This document shows positions 45,473 through 62,116 of a stretch of 64,000 nt of DNA, piece by piece (position 1 is the first letter of the stretch; each line of letters opens with the position of its first letter). Position numbers and translations under genes: made by a program. A model generated the notes under the pieces. The model ran no database searches, was not told the origin of the DNA, and worked only from the letters and a program-made list of their open reading frames with translations. The DNA is from Fodinibius halophilus (lineage in GTDB: Bacteria; Bacteroidota; Rhodothermia; Balneolales; Balneolaceae). The DNA is taken from assembly GCF_011059105.1 (NCBI RefSeq), contig NZ_JAALLS010000003.1, forward strand, positions 62,001-126,000. The letters are read 5' to 3'.

Positions 45473-45574
45473 CTCACATTTTTTTGTTGTAGCTCTGTTC
45501 TGGCCCCATCTTGTTCTGAGGCTGTCCATAGGGGAAAAGACTTTTTTTGGGGGCTTTGCGAAACTAGTCACATC

Positions 45575-45656
45575 TTGTCATGCGGAACTTGTTTCAGCAT
45601 CTCATATACAGTTATTAGCATTAAAACCGAGATCCTGAACTGAATTCAGGATGACA
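45575..45656. repeat. Inverted pair of TCATCC/GGATCTCG-family repeats
   Basis: TTGTCATGCGGAACTTGTTT, then CAGCATCTCATATACAGTTA and TTAGCATTAAAA. The inverted partner at 45628-45656 reads, on the minus strand, GTCATCCTGAATTCAGTTCA then GGATCTCGG. The first part resembles the copy at 17089 over about 50 bases. Confidence 0.65.
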
Positions 45657-45870
45657 TTACCGAGTTTTGCAAAGCTCCCTTTCTATAAGTAACAGCTGGA
45701 AGTTCGGCTGGGATTCTAAGAAAGGTTATGAAGCTTTTAAAATCAGCACATATTATTGACAGGCGTCCCTGGGATAGGCCAGATGTGGGTCAGCACGCCG
45801 GTAGTAAAGACTTGGGATTTTCGACCTTTAACCAGCCCAATTCCCCGTTATTTTTCAACCTCCTCTTGGT

Positions 45871-45891
45871 CTCCTCCTTCATAAGGAGGAG
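45871..45891. repeat. Perfect CTCCTCCTT/AAGGAGGAG hairpin
   Basis: Nine-base perfect arms around CAT. It is followed by AAATGAATG and preceded by CCTCCTCTTGGT, as part of a longer element related to those at 42416 and 43166. Confidence 0.7.
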
Positions 45892-46214
45892 AAATGAATG
45901 TGCCATCTTCATAGGCTACAACAACAATAAAATATAGAACCCTGCTTTAGATGTATTGGGTTATAAATTTAGCACCTAACTCATAGTAAAGTCCCCCTCC
46001 TTATCATGTATAGGCCGGGGACACGGGTGGTTGCCAAACCACAACTCTATGAACTTCTTTATAAAGAGGAGAAATTTTTGATGGCAATTTAAGAACCATC
46101 ACTAAAGCACTGGAAATACCAGCTACCCGAGCTTAATGGCTTAAACTGCACAGAAATAATATGAACCGCTTGGTGGAAGGCCTCGGGGAATTTCCTGGGA
46201 TATTACTTCATCTT

Positions 46215-49731: not shown

Positions 49732-51540
49732 TTAGAACTTCTTTCTAAGTATATCTATCAATTTTTTAATATTTTCTTTGGACTCATCATCTATATCAAT
49801 TCCACCATTTAGTACTTTCTCATAGAATAACTTTGCGTTAAGTACCTTATCCGTTTTTTTTGCTATCGTTGAATTCTTTTTTCTTTTATCATATTTGCCT
49901 GTCTCTAATATTGCCGAATGATATAGATCTTTACTTAAAACATCTTCAATTGCTGCATTTGCCAATGGTATTTTACCTATCATATCTTTAGTTGTGCACT
50001 CCCAATCCTTATCTAACTTCTTTTTTGCTTCTTTATATCCATTATCATTATCGAACAGATAATATATATCACAACCCCAGCCTTGGAGAATAGTTCCAAC
50101 ATGTGGCATATTAGTAGCCCCACCCCCATGAATTATATTGACTGAATTCTCATTCATAATTTTCATAAAAGCATTTAAATAATAGTAGTCAGAAGGACCT
50201 TCAACAATTATATTATTAATCTTATCAACATTACTTATTCCATCATTTATACCTAACCCTATTGTTGTTAAAACTGGCGTTAATGTTTCTTTATCCGAAA
50301 CCTTATGTAATTTATTAGATATTGTAGTATTATTATTTTCTTTCAAAACAGCTCTAACTCTATGCAACCTATCATTACTAATCAAATAAGGGGAATGTGT
50401 TGAAAAAAGAATTTGTGAAGGCAAATCATTCAATCTCTTGATGATATCTTTCTGTGCTTTAGCATGTAAATAAAGACCAGGTTCATCTATCAAAATTATA
50501 TTATCGTACTCTTCTTTTGTCTTCGCAGATACCAAAATATAAAAAGATAAATACCACTGTTTTCCCTTACTCCTCATGCTGGGCTTAAAATGCTCATTTT
50601 CTTCAGAAATAAAGAACAAGACTGTATCACTATCCCATTCTATTAAAACCTCTGACTGATCTTGTTTCCAATATTTTTGAAGCTCTTCATTGAATTCTAT
50701 ATTTAATCTTTTTTTATGATTAACCTTCTGTAGGTTCCCTCCTGACTTTATTAAACTTGTATCAATATCAGAAATTTTCTCAAATGCTTTAATCCATTTA
50801 CTATTTGATAAATTATCGATTTCAATCTCATTAGGTAAGATATCATCAAAAGATTTAAATAAAACGAAATATGGCACATAGTGCGCAAGCTCAGTCGCAT
50901 ATCTTAAATCATCGTTATCATTTTTATTAATCTTGAGTAAGCTAATCAACTCATTAACTTCTTGGGTTAAAGTATTTACATTGCTAACATGACTATTGTT
51001 ATTTAATTGATTAGTATATTGCTTGAATCTCTTTATTGAATCTTCAAGATTGTTATAAATGACCTCAGGAAGTTTAACTTCAGCCTGTCTTGACACATTT
51101 TCATCATGCAATATGTTAATCTCACTAGTTTTCTTTTCTATATCTTCCCTAACTTTATATCGTGCCTTTTTAATTTCTAATAATCCTATTTGGCGCAAGA
51201 ATTCTTCATCCAAAAAATAATTTGATGAAAAATCTTTTGTCAAAGTCAGCTCCAATTCATTTTTGGACAACTCTTTAATCTCTTCTGTTACTTTAAAGGT
51301 AGGAAGCTCTTCATGACCAATTCTTAGGGTAAGCTCAATTCTCGGTTCTCCATCTTTATGTACCGGTATATGATCTTCAGAGAATTCTTTATCTACGTTA
51401 AAGCACTCCAATGCTTCAAGAACATTAGACTTTCCTGACTCATTTTTTCCTGCTAAAATCGTTAAATCCCTTGACAAATAGCATTCCCCTGAATCAATAA
51501 TTGATTTAAAATTAAAGATTCTAAAACTAATTAACTCCAT
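49732..51540 (-). CDS. OLD-family ATPase with TOPRIM nuclease domain
   Basis: 602 residues. The N-terminal ABC/SMC-like ATPase half has Walker A at 31-39 (GKNESGKSN), a coiled-coil insertion (about 125-200), and Walker B IILIDEPGLYLHAKAQ followed by LFSTHSPYLIS. The C-terminal TOPRIM domain begins NIIVEGPSDYYYLNAFMKI and has the DxD pair in IYYLFDNDNGYKEAK. This is the class 1 OLD (overcoming lysogenization defect) plan; no UvrD-like helicase sits beside it, so it is not a Gabija pair. Such nucleases often serve in phage defence. It is markedly more AT-rich than neighbours and splits the quinone operon from its likely MarR regulator, a sign of acquisition. Function as defence is inference. 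Confidence 0.88.
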   Translation of the reverse strand: MELISFRIFNFKSIIDSGECYLSRDLTILAGKNESGKSNVLEALECFNVDKEFSEDHIPVHKDGEPRIELTLRIGHEELPTFKVTEEIKELSKNELELTLTKDFSSNYFLDEEFLRQIGLLEIKKARYKVREDIEKKTSEINILHDENVSRQAEVKLPEVIYNNLEDSIKRFKQYTNQLNNNSHVSNVNTLTQEVNELISLLKINKNDNDDLRYATELAHYVPYFVLFKSFDDILPNEIEIDNLSNSKWIKAFEKISDIDTSLIKSGGNLQKVNHKKRLNIEFNEELQKYWKQDQSEVLIEWDSDTVLFFISEENEHFKPSMRSKGKQWYLSFYILVSAKTKEEYDNIILIDEPGLYLHAKAQKDIIKRLNDLPSQILFSTHSPYLISNDRLHRVRAVLKENNNTTISNKLHKVSDKETLTPVLTTIGLGINDGISNVDKINNIIVEGPSDYYYLNAFMKIMNENSVNIIHGGGATNMPHVGTILQGWGCDIYYLFDNDNGYKEAKKKLDKDWECTTKDMIGKIPLANAAIEDVLSKDLYHSAILETGKYDKRKKNSTIAKKTDKVLNAKLFYEKVLNGGIDIDDESKENIKKLIDILRKKF

Positions 51541-52194: not shown

Positions 52195-54657
52195 TTACTC
52201 TATATCGATATCCCAGATCCGCTCACAATAATCACGAATGGAACGATCAGAAGAAAAGTGTCCCATCTTCGCAACATTTAAAATTGCCTTTTTATTCCAG
52301 TCGAAACTATTTCGGTAATTCTCTTCTACCTCCTTCTGCTTGTCGATATATTGTCGGAAGTCTGCCAGTACCATAAAATAGTCGCCCTGGCTAAGTAAAG
52401 CATTGGTGATAGGGTGAAAAAGGTCCGGAGTTTCGGGGGTGAAATATCCCTCATGTATCTGGTCTACCACCTTCTTTAGCTCTTCATCCTCCTCGTATAT
52501 CTCCTGTGGATGATAACCACTGTTGCGCACCTCTTTAATTTCATCCACGGTGTGCCCGAAAATAAAAATATTTTCATTCCCCACCTGTTCACGGATTTCA
52601 ATATTTGCCCCATCCAGTGTACCAATCGTTAGCGCGCCGTTGAGGGCAAACTTCATATTCCCCGTGCCCGAAGCTTCCATTCCTGCTGTAGAGATCTGTT
52701 CAGAAAGATTGGCGGCAGGAATCATCTTTTCGGCCAGCGACACACTATAATCCGGTAGAAAAAGCACCTTTAGCTTAGGTGCCACATCCGGATCATTATT
52801 AATAACCTCGGCTACACTGTTAATCAATTTGATATGCAGCTTGGCCATCGTATAGCCCGGAGCCGCTTTACCAGCAAAAAGCAGTGTTCGTGGCGCAACA
52901 TCTGCATTGGGATTTTTCTTCAGCCTGTTATATAGCGCGATGGCATGCATAATAGCCATTAACTGACGCTTATACTCATGGATCCTTTTGATCTGGATGT
53001 CAAAAATAGAGTGGGGATCTACCTGCACGCCCATCGTCTTTTTAATATAGCCGGCCAGCTGTTGCTTATTACGAAGTTTGATCTCTTTAAACTGCTCCTG
53101 AAATTCTTCATCGCCGGCAAACTTCTCCAGCTGCTGCAGCTGTTCTAAATTTGTAACCCAATCACTGCCAATATTATCAGAAATAAGTTCCGATAATTCT
53201 CTGTTACACTGCCGCAGCCATCGGCGGGGGGTAATGCCGTTTGTTACGTTGGTAAACTTTTGGGGAAAGTGGTCGCTAAAATCACTGAAAATAGTTTTCT
53301 TCATCAGCGAGCTGTGCAACTTCGAGACCCCGTTTACTTTTTTCGCCCCCACAATTCCAAGGTGGCCCATCCGTACGCGCGACTCCATCTCATTACTAAT
53401 AATCCGCATATCGTTCTTCTTGCTGTTCGCGCTACGATCACCGCTTACCTCAATAGTATTCAAAAAACGACGATCAATCTCGCGAATAATCTGTGTATGT
53501 CGAGGAAGCAAATTTGACATCAACGACAGTGGCCACTTCTCCAGTGCCTCCGGCATTAACGTATGATTGGTATAGTTGATCGTCTTTGTCGTAATCTCCC
53601 AGGCCGGTATCCATTCCAAACCCTCTTCGTCCATCAGCACACGCATCAACTCCGGAATCGCCAGGTTCGGATGCGTGTCGTTACATTGAATCGCCATCTG
53701 TTCGGGAATCTTAGACAGGTCTGAAAACTGCTTTTTAAAGCGCACCATGGCATCCTGCAGCGAAGCCGAGACTAAAAAATACTCCTGTTTCAGCCGCAGC
53801 TCCTGTCCCTTGAATACCTTGTCATTGGGATACAACACGCGCGAGATATTCTCTTCCAGCAGATTGTTGCGTACTGCATCAATATAATCTCCCTGGTTAA
53901 AGCTTTTAAGATCAAAGCCTTCATCAGACGTTGCCTTCCACAGACGCAAGTGGTTAACCACATCATTTTGATAACCGGGAATAGGGGTATCATAGGCCAG
54001 TGCTGTCACGTTATGGGTATTCACCCAGTCAAAATGGAGGCGCCCGTTGCTATCCTCATGGGCCGTAGCCTCTCCATAAAAACGAACCCGGTATTTCTTC
54101 TTGGGACGCACTACGCTCCACGGGTATCCATACTGCAACCACATGTCGGGCTTCTCTACCTGCCAACCGTTTTCAATATCCTGATCAAAAATACCGTAGT
54201 CGTATCGAATGCCATAGCCCAGCGCCGGTACGCCCAGGGTAGCCATCGAATCCAGGAAACATGCGGCCAGCCGCCCCAGCCCCCCGTTACCGAGCCCGGC
54301 ATCAGCTTCGGCTTCGCGCACCTTATCATAATCAAGCCCCAAATCTTCAATCGCCTCGGCCACCACATCCTGCACTCCCAGATTAATGAGCATATTATCC
54401 ATCAGCCGCCCAATAAGATACTCCATCGACAGGTAGTACACCCGCTTCGACTTTTGGGCATAATAGCTTTGCTGGGTGTTAATCCACCGATCATGCAGGC
54501 GATCCATAACAGCCATTACCACACTTCTATAATGGTCCCACTCTGTGGATGAAAACTTATCTTTAGCCAATGTATAATGAAGATGCTGATGGATATCTTC
54601 GCGAAAGGCATCCACATCCATTCCCGTACGGGGGTTGTGCGAGGTGTCTGAAGGCAT
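52195..54657 (-). CDS. glgP: Glycogen/starch phosphorylase
   Basis: 820 residues from the ATG at 54655-54657; a TTG 15 bases upstream is less likely. Features are VYYLSMEYLIGRLMDNMLIN, GLGNGGLGRLAACFLDSMAT, YGIFDQDIENGWQVE and the PLP-binding lysine (about 669) in EASGTGNMKFALNGALTIGT. It releases glucose-1-phosphate from glycogen. The full length suggests an active GT35 enzyme. Monocistronic; no other glycogen gene is in the window. Confidence 0.97.
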   Translation of the reverse strand: MPSDTSHNPRTGMDVDAFREDIHQHLHYTLAKDKFSSTEWDHYRSVVMAVMDRLHDRWINTQQSYYAQKSKRVYYLSMEYLIGRLMDNMLINLGVQDVVAEAIEDLGLDYDKVREAEADAGLGNGGLGRLAACFLDSMATLGVPALGYGIRYDYGIFDQDIENGWQVEKPDMWLQYGYPWSVVRPKKKYRVRFYGEATAHEDSNGRLHFDWVNTHNVTALAYDTPIPGYQNDVVNHLRLWKATSDEGFDLKSFNQGDYIDAVRNNLLEENISRVLYPNDKVFKGQELRLKQEYFLVSASLQDAMVRFKKQFSDLSKIPEQMAIQCNDTHPNLAIPELMRVLMDEEGLEWIPAWEITTKTINYTNHTLMPEALEKWPLSLMSNLLPRHTQIIREIDRRFLNTIEVSGDRSANSKKNDMRIISNEMESRVRMGHLGIVGAKKVNGVSKLHSSLMKKTIFSDFSDHFPQKFTNVTNGITPRRWLRQCNRELSELISDNIGSDWVTNLEQLQQLEKFAGDEEFQEQFKEIKLRNKQQLAGYIKKTMGVQVDPHSIFDIQIKRIHEYKRQLMAIMHAIALYNRLKKNPNADVAPRTLLFAGKAAPGYTMAKLHIKLINSVAEVINNDPDVAPKLKVLFLPDYSVSLAEKMIPAANLSEQISTAGMEASGTGNMKFALNGALTIGTLDGANIEIREQVGNENIFIFGHTVDEIKEVRNSGYHPQEIYEEDEELKKVVDQIHEGYFTPETPDLFHPITNALLSQGDYFMVLADFRQYIDKQKEVEENYRNSFDWNKKAILNVAKMGHFSSDRSIRDYCERIWDIDIE

Positions 54658-54756
54658 TGTCTGTAAACCCAATTATTGTATTTGTTAATTGGGTAATTAA
54701 ATGCGAATACAGTAAAAATAAAAATCGAGCTTAAAAAGAAGTGCAAATCCCTTTTT

Positions 54757-54794
54757 AAAAAATAGCTGGTGCAAACTCAATATTGCACCAGCTA
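54757..54794 (-). terminator. Rho-independent terminator of the surface-lipoprotein array
   Basis: On the minus strand, TAGCTGGTGCAA pairs perfectly with TTGCACCAGCTA across eight bases, followed by six T residues. It lies about 40 bases after the stop of the last lipoprotein gene. Confidence 0.88.
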
Positions 54795-54833
54795 TACAAT
54801 GGGACTGTTAAAATTCAGTAACCCAGTTTATTA

Positions 54834-56363
54834 CTACGAGCCCGGGCAGGTACCCCATTCAGGTTTATTACTCTCTGTAAGTGGACTTCCTGCGGAGAAG
54901 TTAGAAGGTTCTGAAGAAATATTAGATACACACCAGCTGCTAATATCCTGATTAAAAGATGCTGCATCTTCGAACATTGAAGTCATGCTCGTTACATTGC
55001 TCACGTCCCAGTTGGCAATATTTCTATTAAAGGAATCTGCATGCTCAAACATACTGCTCATAAATTCAACACTGCTTACATTCCAACTACTGATATTTCC
55101 ATTGAAGGTATCAGCCCCAGCAAACATTGACCGCATATCTGTAACACTGCTAACATTCCAATTGCTGAGATCTCTATTAAATGAATTTGCCCCATAAAAC
55201 ATATCCTGCATATCCGTTACTTTGCTCACATCCCAGCCACTGATGTCTGAGTTAAAGGAAGACGTTTCACTAAACATATTCTCCATATTCGTTACATTGC
55301 TTACATTCCAACCACTAATATCTCCATTAAAGGCTGAAGCCTGATTAAACATGTTATCCATGTCTGTAACAGACGAGACATTCCAGCTACTAATATCTCC
55401 ATTGAAAGTACTATTTCGCTCAAACATTCTACTCATTTTCGTTACACTGCTGACATCCCAACTGGTGAGATCTCTATTAAAAGCTGTGGCTTCATAAAAC
55501 ATCTCACTCATATCTACTACATTACTCACACCCCAGTTGCTGAGATCTCTGTCAAAGGAAGTTGCACGGAAAAACATAGCACTCATATCGGTTACACTGC
55601 TCACATCCCAATGACTAATATCACCATTGAAAGTATCCTCACTACCAAACATACCACTCATGTCCGTTACTCCACTCGTACAGGTTGTTTCGGCATTGGA
55701 AGTAGTAATCTGGGATTTGCTGCGTTTGGTATAAGTAACGCCATCCACTTCTCCGGTGTCACCCACACTGGCATCCTCACACTTTACTGTCACTCCGTTT
55801 TCAGCCAAATAAAATGGAGATTGCTCTTTAAACACAGCCATTACTTCTTTGGCCCCATCCATCGTAATTTGCTGGGGATTTTCACTGCCGGTTAGATCTT
55901 TGGTCCACTCTACAAACTCCCAGCCGGTAGCAGGATTGGCCGTCAATTTCACAACAGTACCGTGCTCGTAATCTGTGGATTTTTGTTGAACGATTTCCTC
56001 ATTTACTGATCCATCACCATCTGTGGTAACGGCAAGCTCATAGCTTTTTACTTTAAAGTTGGCTGTAATAGAATAATCTTGATCTACTGTCAATGACAAC
56101 GGATTGTCAGAACTCTCTACATCGCCGGTCCAGCTGGTAAACATATATTCTTCGTTGGCATTGGCATCAATCTCAATTTCTTCCCCTTCATCATAGGTGT
56201 TTGAACCTGAGGGAGAGATCGATCCCCCTTCGGTAGAAGACAGATCAACCGTGTAGGTGGTTGTTTCGCCTTCATCTCCCGGACCGGTCCCCGAATCGCC
56301 GCACGCGGCCAACATGAATCCTGTAAATAAAAGTGTGATAAGTAGTTTGGTTAGTCGTCTCAT
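54834..56363 (-). CDS. BspA-like surface lipoprotein, DUF285 repeats
   Basis: 509 residues. Lipoprotein signal peptide with the lipobox LAAC (Cys21), then GDSGTGPGDEGE linker. Two InlB-type B-repeats follow (about 38-180: [40 protein letters not shown]). A Cys-containing joint (VTVKCEDASVGDTGEVDGVT, then TTCTSGVTDMSGMF) leads to ten copies of a 25-residue repeat with the core FNxDISxWDVSSVTDM (DUF285/PARCEL). The end is WCVSNISSEPSNF and WGTCPGS, with two Cys that may close a disulfide. Anchored in the outer membrane or periplasm, probably for adhesion or binding. Last of three paralogues. Confidence 0.9.
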   Translation of the reverse strand: MRRLTKLLITLLFTGFMLAACGDSGTGPGDEGETTTYTVDLSSTEGGSISPSGSNTYDEGEEIEIDANANEEYMFTSWTGDVESSDNPLSLTVDQDYSITANFKVKSYELAVTTDGDGSVNEEIVQQKSTDYEHGTVVKLTANPATGWEFVEWTKDLTGSENPQQITMDGAKEVMAVFKEQSPFYLAENGVTVKCEDASVGDTGEVDGVTYTKRSKSQITTSNAETTCTSGVTDMSGMFGSEDTFNGDISHWDVSSVTDMSAMFFRATSFDRDLSNWGVSNVVDMSEMFYEATAFNRDLTSWDVSSVTKMSRMFERNSTFNGDISSWNVSSVTDMDNMFNQASAFNGDISGWNVSNVTNMENMFSETSSFNSDISGWDVSKVTDMQDMFYGANSFNRDLSNWNVSSVTDMRSMFAGADTFNGNISSWNVSSVEFMSSMFEHADSFNRNIANWDVSNVTSMTSMFEDAASFNQDISSWCVSNISSEPSNFSAGSPLTESNKPEWGTCPGS

Positions 56364-56435
56364 TATGATATTCTTAGTTTTTTTAGTGGATTAAGCCGGC
56401 CTTTTTACGGCTGGCAAATAATTATCAATTGTTTT

Positions 56436-57704
56436 CTATGTACCGGGACAAGTTCCCCACTCCGGTTCATTACTATCTTCAAGCGCACTGAATGATGAAA
56501 AACCACCGGGCTCTGATGTGAAATTTGATACACACCAGCCGCTGAGATCTTGGTTAAAAGATGTAGCATTATAAAACATCGTCTCCATATCTGTAACTCC
56601 CGAGACATCCCAATCGCCTATATCTCTATTGAAGCCCTCAGCATCGGCAAACATAGTGTTCATATCGGTTACATTAGACACATCCCAGTTACTGATCTCC
56701 CCGTTAAAGTTGATAGCATCATGAAACATATCACTCATATCTTCCACACCGGATACATCCCAACTGTTGAGATCCTGATTAAACGCCTCGGCACCTTGAA
56801 ACATGCGCTTCATACTTTCTACACTACTTACATCATCTCCCCAGCTGTCGATATCCTGATTGAAAGAAGTAGCATTCCAAAACATCGCACTCATATCCGT
56901 CACGCTGCTGACATCCCAGTTGCTCAAGTCACCATTAAAGGCAGTAGCATCCATAAACATAGATCCCATATACAAAACACCAGAGACATCCCAACTGCTG
57001 ATATCCCCACTAAAGGCCTCGGCACCTTGAAACATTTTAAGCATATTCGTAGCACTAGACACATCCCAGTGGCTGATATCCTGGTTAAAAGACTTAGCAT
57101 CATGAAATATAGCAGTCATAGTTGTAACACTGCTGACATCCCAACTGCTAATATCTTCGTTGAAATCCACAGAGTCCCGAAAAACATAACTCAAATCCGT
57201 AATATCACTTGTGCAAGTGGTAGAGGCATTATCTGTGGTAATCTGATCGGCAATGCGCTTAGTGTAAGTGACATCATCTACCGTACCGGTATCGCCAACG
57301 CCGGCGTCTTCACACTTGATAGTCACACCGTTTTCGGCCATATAAAATTTTGCTTGTTCCTCTTCGAAGACGGCCGTTACCTCTTTAGACTCGTCAATGG
57401 TAATCTGTTGGGGATTCTCTGTTCCTGTCATATCTCCTTGCCACTCCACAAAGATCCAGCCGCTGGCGGCCTCGGCGGTTAGTTCTACAGTTTCTCCTTC
57501 ATCATAGGGGCCATCGGCTGACCGAGAAACAGCCCCCCCTTCTGATGGCGTTACGGTGATATCCATGCTGTAGGTGGTTGTTTCACCTCCATCGTTGTCT
57601 CCATTACCGTCATTGCCGGGACCGGTGCCGGAATCGCCGCACGCAGCCAACATGAATCCTGTGAATACAAGTGTAGTAAGTAGTGTGGTTAGTCGTCTCA
57701 TCAT
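56436..57704 (-). CDS. BspA-like surface lipoprotein, DUF285 repeats (second copy)
   Basis: 422 residues. LAAC lipobox at Cys22, then one InlB-type B-repeat (about 45-115: ITVTPSEGGAVSRSADGPYD, then WIFVEWQGDMTGTENPQQIT). The Cys joint VTIKCEDAGVGDTGTVDDVT follows, with nine repeats (FNQDISHWDVSSATNM-type) and a C-terminus WCVSNFTSEPGGFSSF, WGTCPGT. One repeat has an insert (SFNQDIDSWGDDVSS). It is the shortest of the three. Signal-peptide DNA is nearly identical to that of its neighbours, which points to recent duplication of the module. Confidence 0.9.
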   Translation of the reverse strand: MMRRLTTLLTTLVFTGFMLAACGDSGTGPGNDGNGDNDGGETTTYSMDITVTPSEGGAVSRSADGPYDEGETVELTAEAASGWIFVEWQGDMTGTENPQQITIDESKEVTAVFEEEQAKFYMAENGVTIKCEDAGVGDTGTVDDVTYTKRIADQITTDNASTTCTSDITDLSYVFRDSVDFNEDISSWDVSSVTTMTAIFHDAKSFNQDISHWDVSSATNMLKMFQGAEAFSGDISSWDVSGVLYMGSMFMDATAFNGDLSNWDVSSVTDMSAMFWNATSFNQDIDSWGDDVSSVESMKRMFQGAEAFNQDLNSWDVSGVEDMSDMFHDAINFNGEISNWDVSNVTDMNTMFADAEGFNRDIGDWDVSGVTDMETMFYNATSFNQDLSGWCVSNFTSEPGGFSSFSALEDSNEPEWGTCPGT

Positions 57705-57780
57705 GATTTTTTTTCATTCCTTTTAAATTTTTTTCCGGGATGACCAATCCTTGATTGGTTGGTCATCCTGTTTGCATATT

Positions 57781-60700
57781 CTACTTATTGGAACATGCGT
57801 TTGTGCTCCCCCAATTCGGGAGTTTGACACTGCCTTCAAAACCGGCACCGGCATCAAACTCAGTGGGCTTTGTACCAAACTGACTCACACACCAACCGTT
57901 TAGATTTTGATCAAAGTCTACAGCGCCCTTAAACATTTTATCCATATTATTTACGCCTGACACATCCCAGGCTCCTATATATGTATTGAAGTTTATAGCG
58001 TCCCTAAACATGTTACCCATATTTTCCACACTGTTAACATTCCAGTCTCCGATATCCTGGTTGAACAATGTAGCACCAGTAAACATACTCTCCATACTTG
58101 CAACATTACTGACGTCCCAATCACTGATATCTTGGTTAAAGGATGAGGCATTCTTAAACATTCCATCCATATTCGTGACACTGGAGACATCCCAATCGGC
58201 GACATCTCCATTGAAGGCCGTAGCATCTTTAAACATATCCCGCATACTTGTAACATTACTGACGTCGTCCCAGCCAGAGAAGCCTCCTAAATCTTGATTG
58301 AACGAACTAGCACCTTCAAACATACTTGACATACTCTCTACCTTGCTAACATCCCAGTGACCAACATCCCCATTGAAGGCTGTAGCATTTTTAAACATGC
58401 CCCTCATATTTGTTACGTTACTGATGTCTTCCCAGCCCAAGATGCCTCCCAAATCTTGGTTGAATGAACTGGCACCGTCAAACATACGAACCATACTTTC
58501 TACACTACTGACATCCCAACTTCTGATATCCTGATTAAATGAACTGGCACCAACAAACATCCGGTTCATTTTCGTTACACTACTGACGTTCCAATCAGCA
58601 ATATCCCCGTTGAAAGCTGTAGCGCCCCAAAACATGTTACTCATATTTTCCACACTGCTGACATTCCAGTCTCCGATATCCTGGTTGAATGATGTAGCAC
58701 CACTGAACATTCCCACCATATCGGTAACATTACTAACATCCCAGGTGGCTATATCCTGGTTAAAGGATGAGGCATCACTAAACATATTATTCATTACCGT
58801 GACGCTTCGCACATCCCAGCTGCCAATATCCCCATTAAAAGCTTTAGCTTCCCAAAACATAGTACGCATAGAGGTGACACTGCTAACATCCCAGCTGCCA
58901 ATGTCTTGGTTGAAGGCTGTAGCTTCATAAAACATACTTCGCATAGAGGTCACATTGCTCACGTCCCATCCACTGATATCTTGGTTAAAATTGATTACGT
59001 AGGAGAACATGTCTCGCATAGAGGTCACATTACTCACGTCCCATCTTCCTATATCCTGATTAAACCTAACTGGATTACTATAACTCCCACCAAATAAATC
59101 ACTCATATCAGTTATAAGCGTGGTACATACCGCAGTTAGATCTTCGCCGTTGCTTATCTTTTGCTCCAGCAACGTTCGGTCCACGGCTTCATATTCTTTG
59201 CCGTATGAATCTCCGTTTAATATACCTTTCTGGCCGGGTTCGGCTTCGGGACATACAACGGTCACCCCATTTTTCGCCAGATAGAACAGGGGCTCAAAAA
59301 CCGCCGTCACCTCTTTGGGGTTATCAACGGTAATTTCGGCAGGATTACTGCTACCCGTCAAATCCCCCTGCCATTCCACAAATCGCCAACCGTCTGCAGG
59401 CTCGGCCGTCAGCTGCACCGAAGTACCGTGCGTATAACCTTTGGCCTTGACTTCTTCTTCGGTTACCGAACCTTCGCCATCGGTATTCACCGTCAGATCA
59501 TAGCTTTTTTCCTCAAAGACTGCTGTAATGCTTTTGTCCGCATCCATCGTAAATTCGGTCGTCGGTTGCGTACCATACAGATCGCCGGTCCATTCGACGA
59601 ACTCCCAGCCGTCCGCAGGATCTGCCGTCAGCGTCACAGTTGTCCCCGGTTCGTATTCGCTCTGGTCCGGATTCTTGGTCACCAATCCCTGACCTGTTGT
59701 CGATAGGGACAGATGTACCGGACTCTTTTCAAAGACGGCGGTTACCGTTTTAGAAGAACCCACCGTAATTTCGGCAGGATTACTGCTACCCGTCAAATCC
59801 CCCTGCCATTCCACAAATCGCCAACCGTCTGCAGGCTCGGCCGTCAGCTGCACCGAAGTACCGTGCGTATAACTTTTGGACTTCACTTCTTCTTCGGTTA
59901 CCAAACCTTCTCCATCGGTATTCACCGTCAGATCATAGCTTTTTTCTTCAAATACCGCCATGATATCTTTCTCTGAATTCACCGTAACTTCCATCGTGGG
60001 ATGAGAACCTGAAATCTCACCGCCCCATTCCTTAAAAGCCCAACCATCTGCCGGTGAAGCCGTCAAGGTAACCGTTGAGCCATATTCATATTCAGTCTGG
60101 TCCGGATCTTTGGCAACAGATCCTTTGCCCGCCGTATTTAAGTTCAAAGAAAACGTCTCTCTTTCGAACACGGCTGTTACTGCCTTGGCCGTATCTACGG
60201 TAATTTGAGCAGGGATACTGGAGCCTGTTAAATCTCCTTTCCACTGCACAAACTCCCACCCCTCGGCCGCATTGGGAGTCAATTCTACGACATCCCCATA
60301 TTCATAAGCTTTGGCTTTCGATACCACCTTCTCAGAAACGGCCCCACTTCCTTCGGTTGTTACTGCCAGTTCATAACTTTTCTTCTCAAAAACCGCCGTT
60401 ATCTCTTTGGGATCATCAACCGTAATTTGAGTGGGGTTTTCAGTAGCTGTTGTGTCTCCTTTCCATTCAACAAACTTATACCCTTTGGCCGGTGTGGCAA
60501 CCAGTTCTACTGCCGTACCGTCTTCGTATTCATTCGACTTCTGCTGTAACACCTTTTCCTGGATTGAACCTTCTCCTTCCACGTTGGTACTCAACTCATA
60601 ATTTTTGGGCTCAAAGTTTGCGGTAAGATTAAAATCTTGGTCCACCGTCAACGGCAGTGGATTTACATTCCCTTCCATATCTCCGGTCCAGCCGGCAAAA

Positions 60701-60954
60701 ACATAGCCATCTTCCGGGTTGGCCAATAACTGTATTTCTTTTCCTTCTTCATACTTTCCTTCTGTCGATGGGGATACCGTTCCGGCATCTGTTGGGGTCG
60801 TTTCGACCGAAACCGCGTAAGTTGCAACTTCCTCCTTTTCATTATTCCCATTATTTTCATCGGGATCAGGTCCCGTGCCCGAATCGCTGCATGCGGCCAA
60901 CATGAATCCTGTAAATACAAGTAGGATAAGTAGTGTGGTTAGTCGTCTCATCAT
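57781..60954 (-). CDS. Large BspA-like surface lipoprotein, seven InlB repeats and about 16 DUF285 repeats
   Basis: 1057 residues. LAAC lipobox at Cys22, then about seven InlB-type B-repeats (about 45-560) of about 70 residues, each with a GWxFVEWxGDLTGS core and ending TAVFE. Repeats five and seven ([13 protein letters not shown]...) are nearly identical, in DNA as well. A variant Cys joint ([20 protein letters not shown]) leads to about 16 copies of the DUF285 repeat ([16 protein letters not shown] type), two with inserts [10 protein letters not shown] and [10 protein letters not shown]. The C-terminus is [14 protein letters not shown] and ends [10 protein letters not shown], lacking the WGTCPG form. 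First and largest gene of the array, preceded by 280 bases of gene-free DNA. Likely extended, cell-surface binding protein. Confidence 0.9.
59331..59517 (-). repeat. Long direct repeat within the large lipoprotein gene, copy 1
   Basis: 187 bases nearly identical to 59766-59952 (copy 2). The offset of 435 bases equals 145 codons, two InlB-type repeats, so a two-repeat unit has been duplicated in frame. Confidence 0.85.
59766..59952 (-). repeat. Long direct repeat within the large lipoprotein gene, copy 2
   Basis: See 59331-59517. Only a few differences are visible, all near the AAAGGCC/TTGGACTT and ACCGAACC/ACCAAACC positions. Confidence 0.85.
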
Positions 60955-61240
60955 GATATTATTTTTAGTATAACTTAAAGTTCGCCGACACTTTCGAAAT
61001 TAGTCTGTAAACTTTACTGAAAAGGCATTGGTAATTCCTGTTCAAGACTAGTTTTAATCGCTCTCTGTTATTATATACGTGATAGGAATAAAAAATCCCT
61101 CATTTTCATCCGGATGAGATATTTTTTCTCTTCCAAATCGAAAAGGAGGGGAGGAAAGTGGTAAAGTTTTACTGCCTGGTACGTTTATAACTATTGAAAG
61201 CCGGGCGACTTCAAAAGCTCAAAACGGAGAGAAACAATTA
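60955..61240. other. Intergenic region upstream of the lipoprotein array
   Basis: 286 bases between the start of the large lipoprotein gene and the stop of ispE. It should contain the array promoter. No gene, RNA or clear terminator was recognised. Confidence 0.4.
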
Positions 61241-62116
61241 TTATCCCTTTCGGTAGATTCCATAATCCGGTTCAAAGCCGGGACGGGTTAAACTCGCAGG
61301 CAGGTCAAGCTCAAGAAATCCCTGGTAGGCGTTGGTTGCAACAAAATCCTGCTCAAAAATACCGTAGACTGCAGAACCACTGCCCGTCATAGAAGCATAG
61401 ATGGCACCGAACTCATACATCTGGTCTTTAAGATTTCCCGATACATGAATGCGAGGGAACACCGCCTGCTCCAGGTCATTGAACAAGGTATACTGCCACT
61501 CATCAATAGGCTCTTCGGTAAGCGTCTTTTTGAGATCAAAATCGGGATCCGGGTTGGGCACACAATATTTATAGGCCTCAGCCGTACTGCTCTGTTTATT
61601 GGGATAACATGCCACAATCCAATGATTGGGCTGGATATCCAGCTCTTCGATTTCATGGCCAATACCTTTGCCAATCCCCGTCTTACCCTTAATAAAGAAG
61701 GGCACATCCGCCCCGATATTACGACTCAGGTCAATAAGCTCATCATCACTGAGTCCCATCTCTTCAATTTTGTTAAGCATCCGCAGCGTCAAAGCAGCGT
61801 TACTGCTTCCACCTCCTAGCCCTGCTCCTGTTGGAATACGTTTATCAACCCGAATCAGGTAATTGTTTTTGAGCCCCACATACCGATCCAGGGCCGCAAT
61901 GGCTTTATTAATCAGGTTACTGCCATCGGTAGGGATCTCCTCATCGCTCAGCTCAAGCTTCATCTCCGGTGCCTGGCGAACCTCAAAACGATCGCGCCAC
62001 TCCAGAAAACAGAAGCCCGTTTCAATAGCGTGATAGCCCGTTGGCAAGCGATCCAAAACATGCAGACCTAGGTTTATTTTTGCGTACGAATCAGCAATCC
62101 AGATTTCGTTAGACAT
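61241..62116 (-). CDS. ispE: 4-diphosphocytidyl-2-C-methyl-D-erythritol kinase
   Basis: 291 residues of the GHMP kinase family. The ATP loop is IPTGAGLGGGSSNAALTLRM, preceded by SYAKINLGLHVLDRLPTGYH, and the C-terminal SMTGSGSAVYGIFE glycine loop follows. It phosphorylates CDP-ME in the MEP isoprenoid pathway. The pathway's other genes are not in the window. An in-frame start MSNEIWIADSYAKINLG is natural. It lies in a region with repeats on its upstream side. Confidence 0.95.
   Translation of the reverse strand: MSNEIWIADSYAKINLGLHVLDRLPTGYHAIETGFCFLEWRDRFEVRQAPEMKLELSDEEIPTDGSNLINKAIAALDRYVGLKNNYLIRVDKRIPTGAGLGGGSSNAALTLRMLNKIEEMGLSDDELIDLSRNIGADVPFFIKGKTGIGKGIGHEIEELDIQPNHWIVACYPNKQSSTAEAYKYCVPNPDPDFDLKKTLTEEPIDEWQYTLFNDLEQAVFPRIHVSGNLKDQMYEFGAIYASMTGSGSAVYGIFEQDFVATNAYQGFLELDLPASLTRPGFEPDYGIYRKG

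Follow-up and report, generated by a model that had tools for sequence, protein, structure and literature searches.

The three genes at positions 54834-60954 of the window (the whole 64,000-nucleotide stretch of Fodinibius halophilus DNA analysed here) probably encode ligand-binding or adhesive surface lipoproteins that form an operon of three and evolve slowly by birth, death and shuffling. From our point of view, three secreted, lipid-anchored surface proteins would be made from one transcript, and in each of them a stalk that consists of between one and seven B-repeats could hold a solenoid away from the membrane, with a reach that is adjustable through the number of repeats, and the solenoid itself may be used for attachment or for the binding of glycans or other cells. 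On an evolutionary scale, whole genes would be gained and lost at a permissive location flanked by ispE and glgP, blocks of repeats would be duplicated or deleted in frame, and the leaders would be homogenised among the members of the array.

The anatomy of the array agrees exactly with the original prediction, which had placed three open reading frames on the same strand over exactly this span and had counted 2, 1 and 7 B-repeats and about 10, 9 and 16 PARCEL repeats, figures that an independent unit count reproduced. The first gene of the array, lp3 (57781-60954, minus strand), encodes a protein of 1057 aa with 7 B-repeats and 16 PARCEL units; lp2 (56436-57704, minus strand) encodes 422 aa with 1 B-repeat and 9 units, and lp1 (54834-56363, minus strand), the protein whose structure was predicted, 509 aa with 2 B-repeats and 10 units. 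A Pfam search finds B-repeats (PF18998, unit of about 73 residues) in 2, 1 and 7 stretches of lp1, lp2 and lp3, with scores of 99, 54 and 319 bits that exceed the curated cut-off of 23.6. The C-terminal repeats match PF03382 above its curated cut-off (DUF285; E-values of 1e-105, 3e-104 and 1e-180, respectively), and the NCBIfam model TIGR02167 ('PARCEL repeat') lies above its curated cut-off in all three proteins. The repeat pattern is hence far beyond chance, with E-values down to 1e-180. Counted unit by unit on the translation, nearly all PARCEL units have 25 residues and a few have 27-29, so that lp1-lp3 are DUF285/PARCEL proteins both by the two models and by their tandem 25-residue units. 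Each protein is built in the order leader, B-repeat stalk and a C-terminal domain in which the PARCEL units are enclosed by two caps. No other DUF285 match was found elsewhere in the Fodinibius genome (4.19 Mb, 98.6% complete).

The leaders of lp3 (60868-60954; signal peptide plus lipobox, [11 protein letters not shown]), lp2 (57618-57704) and lp1 (56280-56363), all on the minus strand, had been described as near-identical lipoprotein signals, and this is borne out by a DNA identity of 86-89% and a canonical lipobox, LAAC, in 3/3 leaders. The motif fits [LVI][ASTVI][GAS]C near residue 22, after an n- and an h-region, and the common leader reads [17 protein letters not shown][GS]DSGTGP, ending in C[GS]DSGTGP. 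As such, lp1-lp3 are predicted bacterial lipoproteins, for which we infer lipidation, sorting to the outer membrane and a location on the outer surface. The spacing between the genes is only 76 and 72 nt, and a strong terminator-like hairpin with a 13 bp stem and a T tail, identified by consensus match only, follows lp1 (54762-54795, minus strand), with none between the array genes. Judging from the short gaps and from the single strong hairpin, which is located behind the last gene, the array is probably one operon that is read in the order lp3-lp2-lp1, with the hairpin as its likely end.

What the C-terminal domain may look like was addressed by structure prediction, as had been proposed together with the original prediction. 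A prediction from the single sequence was poor (mean pLDDT 56.5), and an AlphaFold2 model of lp1 based on a 33-row alignment of the window proteins and their viral-contig relatives was used instead; its pLDDT is about 91-98 over the PARCEL units and their caps, and most of the B-repeats reach about 72-85. VIA-align matches the model to leucine-rich repeat (LRR) structures, among them SHOC2, LRR proteins of Leptospira and internalins, with Z up to 19.0 and an rmsd of 3.4 over 278 residues. The top PDB rows of a Foldseek search are LRR proteins as well (E of 3e-3 at best), and against predicted viral DUF285 proteins the same program gives an E-value of 4e-24; by sequence search, no solved structure relevant to DUF285 was found. 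The PARCEL domain is thus confidently predicted to be an LRR-type solenoid, with the proviso that repeat solenoids match each other easily.

Within the 25-residue unit, positions 1, 4, 5, 11, 18, 20 and 23 are nearly invariant and form a hydrophobic framework; positions 2, 3, 6, 7, 9, 10, 17 and 25 are variable, and it is the polar positions that vary. With a constant framework and varying polar positions, the solenoid most likely carries a changeable binding surface, and a binding role of lp1-lp3 is probable. One could also imagine that the proteins are structural components of the cell envelope or a matrix, in which repeat length sets the reach and no specific ligand is involved. The variable length of the stalk would suit such a role, as would the giant DUF285 ORFs of 6500-7500 aa that occur in other Balneolaceae; however, the caps are conserved and the variable positions follow a strong pattern, which points to a recognition surface, and we regard a purely structural role as quite unlikely.

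The history of the array can be read from a comparison with related species, each represented by one genome. In G001, another Fodinibius species, the counterpart of lp3 is o10024 (L098:10024-11985): the first 338 residues are collinear, and beyond this point lp3 has three B-repeats more as well as additional PARCEL units, so that the two proteins differ by 7 versus 4 B-repeats and by 16 versus 9 PARCEL units. The counterpart of lp2, assigned by the identity of the body, is o8448 (L098:8448-9953), with 12 PARCEL units compared to 9 in lp2. The existence of these counterparts implies that members of the array predate the split of the species and that repeat number has changed since. In a tree of the non-repetitive caps, lp3 groups with o10024 (support 100/99) and apart from lp1 and lp2, and its caps belong to an older subfamily distinct from theirs; a recent triplication of one gene was rejected on the same grounds. 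The original prediction had read the different repeat numbers of the three genes as repeat-driven variation between copies. What stands of this is that repeat number is labile between species and that members of the array recombine, and what does not is the notion that a single gene was copied recently and that the copies then changed in repeat count, as the caps fall into separate subfamilies. Between species counterparts, dN/dS is 0.08-0.14, values that are approximate because dS is near saturation; they indicate that the proteins are kept under purifying selection and speak against decay.

The array occupies a variable site (54673-61240) between ispE (61241-62116) and glgP, the gene for a glycogen/maltodextrin phosphorylase (52195-54672, minus strand), which adjoins it; in other species the same site contains a pseudogene, other cargo or nothing. 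The IspE protein itself shows 81-86% identity to those of Fodinibius/Aliifodinibius and 63% to that of Gracilimonas. In the closest sister species, G006, IspE is 98% identical and most of the compared neighbour genes are in the same order, and no PARCEL gene was found in its ispE-glgP interval of 623 nt. The gap there contains a broken lipoprotein fragment, a pseudogene of another family, which matches lipoproteins of 395-399 aa elsewhere in the genus that, on our reading of their sequence, are of the PD40/TolB-like repeat type. The alignment of this site between G006 and the window is limited to some 50 nt directly ahead of glgP, so the exact ends of an insertion could not be defined. In species G004 the site is occupied by a single B-repeat/PARCEL lipoprotein whose leader is unrelated, and in other species by an MFS-type transporter, by a gene in the opposite orientation or by nothing.

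Elsewhere in the genus, the array is found at different positions. The array of G001 has five genes; it is located downstream of ispE-glgP, about 13 kb beyond glgP, and ends beside the counterpart of an SDR gene (44750 in the window); in G005 two array genes, and in G010 a fragment of one, are located between the counterparts of this SDR gene and of a patatin gene (46215). The window's own SDR-patatin interval (45473-46214) contains no PARCEL relics. An array at the orthologous site throughout the genus was accordingly rejected, as G006 and other relatives have no PARCEL genes there. The gain and loss of the array and the differing cargo and positions among relatives show that the ispE-glgP locus is a permissive, fast-turnover spot on the scale of species.

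The same comparison bears on whether the proteins could capture nutrients or glycans in concert with the neighbouring phosphorylase, as one might suppose from glgP being adjacent and on the same strand. The association is, however, not conserved, since the array is elsewhere in G001 and G005 and glgP follows ispE in most relatives with no PARCEL genes in between, and neither SusC/SusD nor a glycoside hydrolase was found among the scanned neighbours. Among the explanations we considered, this one is the least probable, and we retain the view of more general adhesive or ligand-binding lipoproteins.

The original prediction had considered a free-living aquatic or saline lineage a less expected place for PARCEL repeats. 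This view has to be given up: DUF285 is present in 10/12 genomes of the genus, in 67/92 Balneolaceae genomes and in 53/296 genomes drawn from the phylum, and the study that coined the term PARCEL already included the hyperhalophile Salinibacter ruber among the hosts, reported many Global Ocean Sampling ORFs with PARCELs and stressed their punctate distribution (Roske et al., 2010; PMC2996958). The B-repeats are common in the family as well (36/39 sampled Balneolaceae genomes). PARCEL-type matches are widespread across phage, plasmid and viral-contig records, and on Salinibacter plasmids and in some phages they are annotated as 'BspA family leucine-rich repeat surface protein'. A scan of viral contigs with the single lp2 protein as query found no relative, whereas the alignment as query found hundreds, which means that absence in single-sequence scans tells little. 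In summary, DUF285 proteins have a wide distribution that covers bacteria, phages and algal viruses, and lp1-lp3 are ordinary members of this family, composed of modules that are common in such bacteria.

Such a distribution also raises the question whether one should see in the PARCEL tract mainly a palindromic coding element that spreads as a selfish or mobile unit and sits in lipoproteins by chance. Horizontal spread and dyad symmetry have both been proposed for PARCEL DNA (Roske et al., 2010; PMC2996958), and the many matches in phage, plasmid and viral-contig records as well as the differing array positions among relatives would be in line with this idea. Dyad symmetry is described as a frequent property of PARCEL DNA and does not define the protein family. 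In the 28 PARCEL units tested, the best-centre complementarity of 0.39-0.48 was not above that of codon-shuffled controls, in a test that is simpler than the published MEME search (Roske et al., 2010) and leaves room for weaker or longer-range symmetry. Further, no mobile-element gene is present among the scanned neighbours, the G+C content of the genes resembles that of their surroundings, and the proteins are under purifying selection. A mainly selfish element is hence very unlikely, and surface proteins are the reading we continue with.

Within the array, leaders and bodies have partly separate histories. The leader DNA of lp1-lp3 is 86-89% identical, whereas the first B-repeats share only 51-62%. 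In its leader, lp2 has more positions in common with lp1 (75/84, 89%) than with its counterpart o8448 (61/84, 73%; Fisher p 0.01), and for the body the relation is reversed, with 144/303 (48%) to lp1 and 263/357 (74%) to o8448 (p 6e-12). The body of lp3 shows this contrast clearly as well (p 7e-6), but for its leader the difference is not significant. A comparable mosaic exists in G001, where o8448 and o12078 are 85% identical over 496 nt that begin about 250 nt upstream and end at codon 80, with no collinear match beyond. Since the leaders are alike within the array and the bodies match the counterparts of another species, gene conversion or shuffling among the array genes is the best explanation of the conflict, although selection on signal sequences may contribute to the likeness of the leaders.

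Whether the locus also varies rapidly is a different matter. The original prediction had assumed that the array might act as a locus for surface variation, and in its strict form this would be a contingency locus, with frequent changes of repeat number and of the combination of leader and body inside a single population. Some properties point in this direction, namely the differing repeat numbers of species counterparts, the mosaic leaders, and a run of seven G early in lp2; the 64 kb contain two runs of this kind, and the one in lp2 is not preserved as such in the counterpart. The best candidate is an exact direct repeat of 109 bp in lp3 (59330-59438 and 59765-59873), whose copies are 435 bp apart and stem from the duplication of two B-repeat units, and which could give rise to in-frame losses or gains of 145 residues; this duplication (59330-59873) is the most likely site of further in-frame expansion or deletion. 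A second duplication, spaced by 624 bp, lies inside the PARCEL tract of lp3 (58018-58775), with exact matches of 29, 19 and 16 bp that all have this spacing and two units that are 88% identical. Against frequent change, the mean DNA identity of PARCEL units is only 62% within and 60% between genes, the maximum of 88% being reached by one pair, and most B-repeats are 42-64% identical, so that both are poor substrates for slippage or frequent recombination. The array contains no simple-sequence repeat array, and the repeats B5 and B7 of lp3 have 86% nucleotide identity and a dS of 0.32, because of which their duplication is not fresh. Rapid variation could occur, mainly at the 435-bp duplication of lp3, the one segment that seems liable to recombine, and a contingency locus is rather unlikely. 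A broader version, in which a free-living halophile maintains a locus of shuffling lipoprotein cassettes, with recombined leaders and bodies, in-frame expansion of two-unit blocks and nearby sites that differ by species, would imply ongoing surface variation in natural populations that face no host immune system; we consider it doubtful.

Adhesive or ligand-binding lipoproteins with a slow turnover hence remain the preferred reading, and the value of the array is that of a useful example rather than a surprise, as it unites a relic at the site in a sister species, an array at another site, a change of counts, mosaics and the prediction of an LRR-type fold. It represents a natural series of one architecture with differing lengths of stalk and solenoid and with traceable counterparts in a related array, and is as such suited to the questions what the PARCEL domain binds and how repeat number evolves.

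Among known systems, LppQ and LppC of Mycoplasma mycoides and relatives (PF03382, TIGR02167) have tandem 25-residue units behind a lipoprotein leader in common with lp1-lp3, as well as a variable unit number, a unique sequence per unit and several genes per genome; the proteins studied here differ in that they occur in a Gram-negative halophile, have a B-repeat stalk between leader and units and show no detected dyad symmetry of the kind described for PARCEL DNA (Roske et al., 2010). The PARCEL lipoproteins of the Mbov_0838 family (NF045896) align strongly over the PARCEL tract, but the scores of 231, 252 and 416 bits lie below the family's cut-off of 500 bits. Database matches of the lp1-lp3 kind carry the name of BspA, and a solenoid of LRR type is predicted here. 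In BspA proper (TpLRR), the repeat unit has about 23 residues, compared to 25 in lp1-lp3, and LRR_5 is not among the Pfam families listed for the latter at E <= 1e-3. The Listeria internalins InlA, InlB and InlF combine LRRs with B-repeats and thus resemble lp1-lp3 in joining an LRR-type binding domain to such repeats. The LRR sequence class is a different one, no host is known for lp1-lp3, and the order is reversed, from a lipid anchor through the B-repeats to the C-terminal repeat domain, so that lp1-lp3 look like an internalin turned around, with an adjustable reach.

A run of seven G residues on the coding strand falls at codon 56 of lp2 (window 57533-57539), one of the three lipoprotein genes of the array, and one could imagine it as a slippage site. 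Since the same stretch reads GGTGG in the lp2 counterpart of G001, another species of the genus, the run is, from our point of view, a possible but weak candidate for such a role.

In the closest sister species, G006, a PD40/TolB-like SxSTGP lipoprotein is represented by a broken fragment in the gap between ispE and glgP (G006:C2:105592-105777; loci L204 and L084). The interval between the SDR and patatin genes, which in the window is an intergenic stretch with palindromic repeats (CCTGAACTGAATTCAGGATGACA...; 45473-46214), is occupied by PARCEL genes or a fragment in two further related species (G005 and G010) and is reduced to a few nucleotides in G006. Elsewhere in the window, a gene encoding an AAA_15 domain and an OLD-like TOPRIM nuclease (49732-51540, minus strand), possibly an anti-phage gene, is flanked by esterase and marR genes; these two directly adjoin in G006, where no match to the AAA_15/TOPRIM gene was found.

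DUF285-like repeats are encoded in at least 574 stretches of IMG/VR contigs (loci L125-L203), and 43 records of Synechococcus phages also contain matches. Virus collections are rich in this domain. Within the Balneolaceae, giant DUF285 ORFs of 6500-7500 aa are present in four other genomes (G012, G015, G018 and G040; loci L112-L114). The giant ORF of G015, as well as the non-lipoprotein DUF285 proteins of G014, G021 and G039, ends in a C-terminal motif that resembles a type IX secretion sorting tail.
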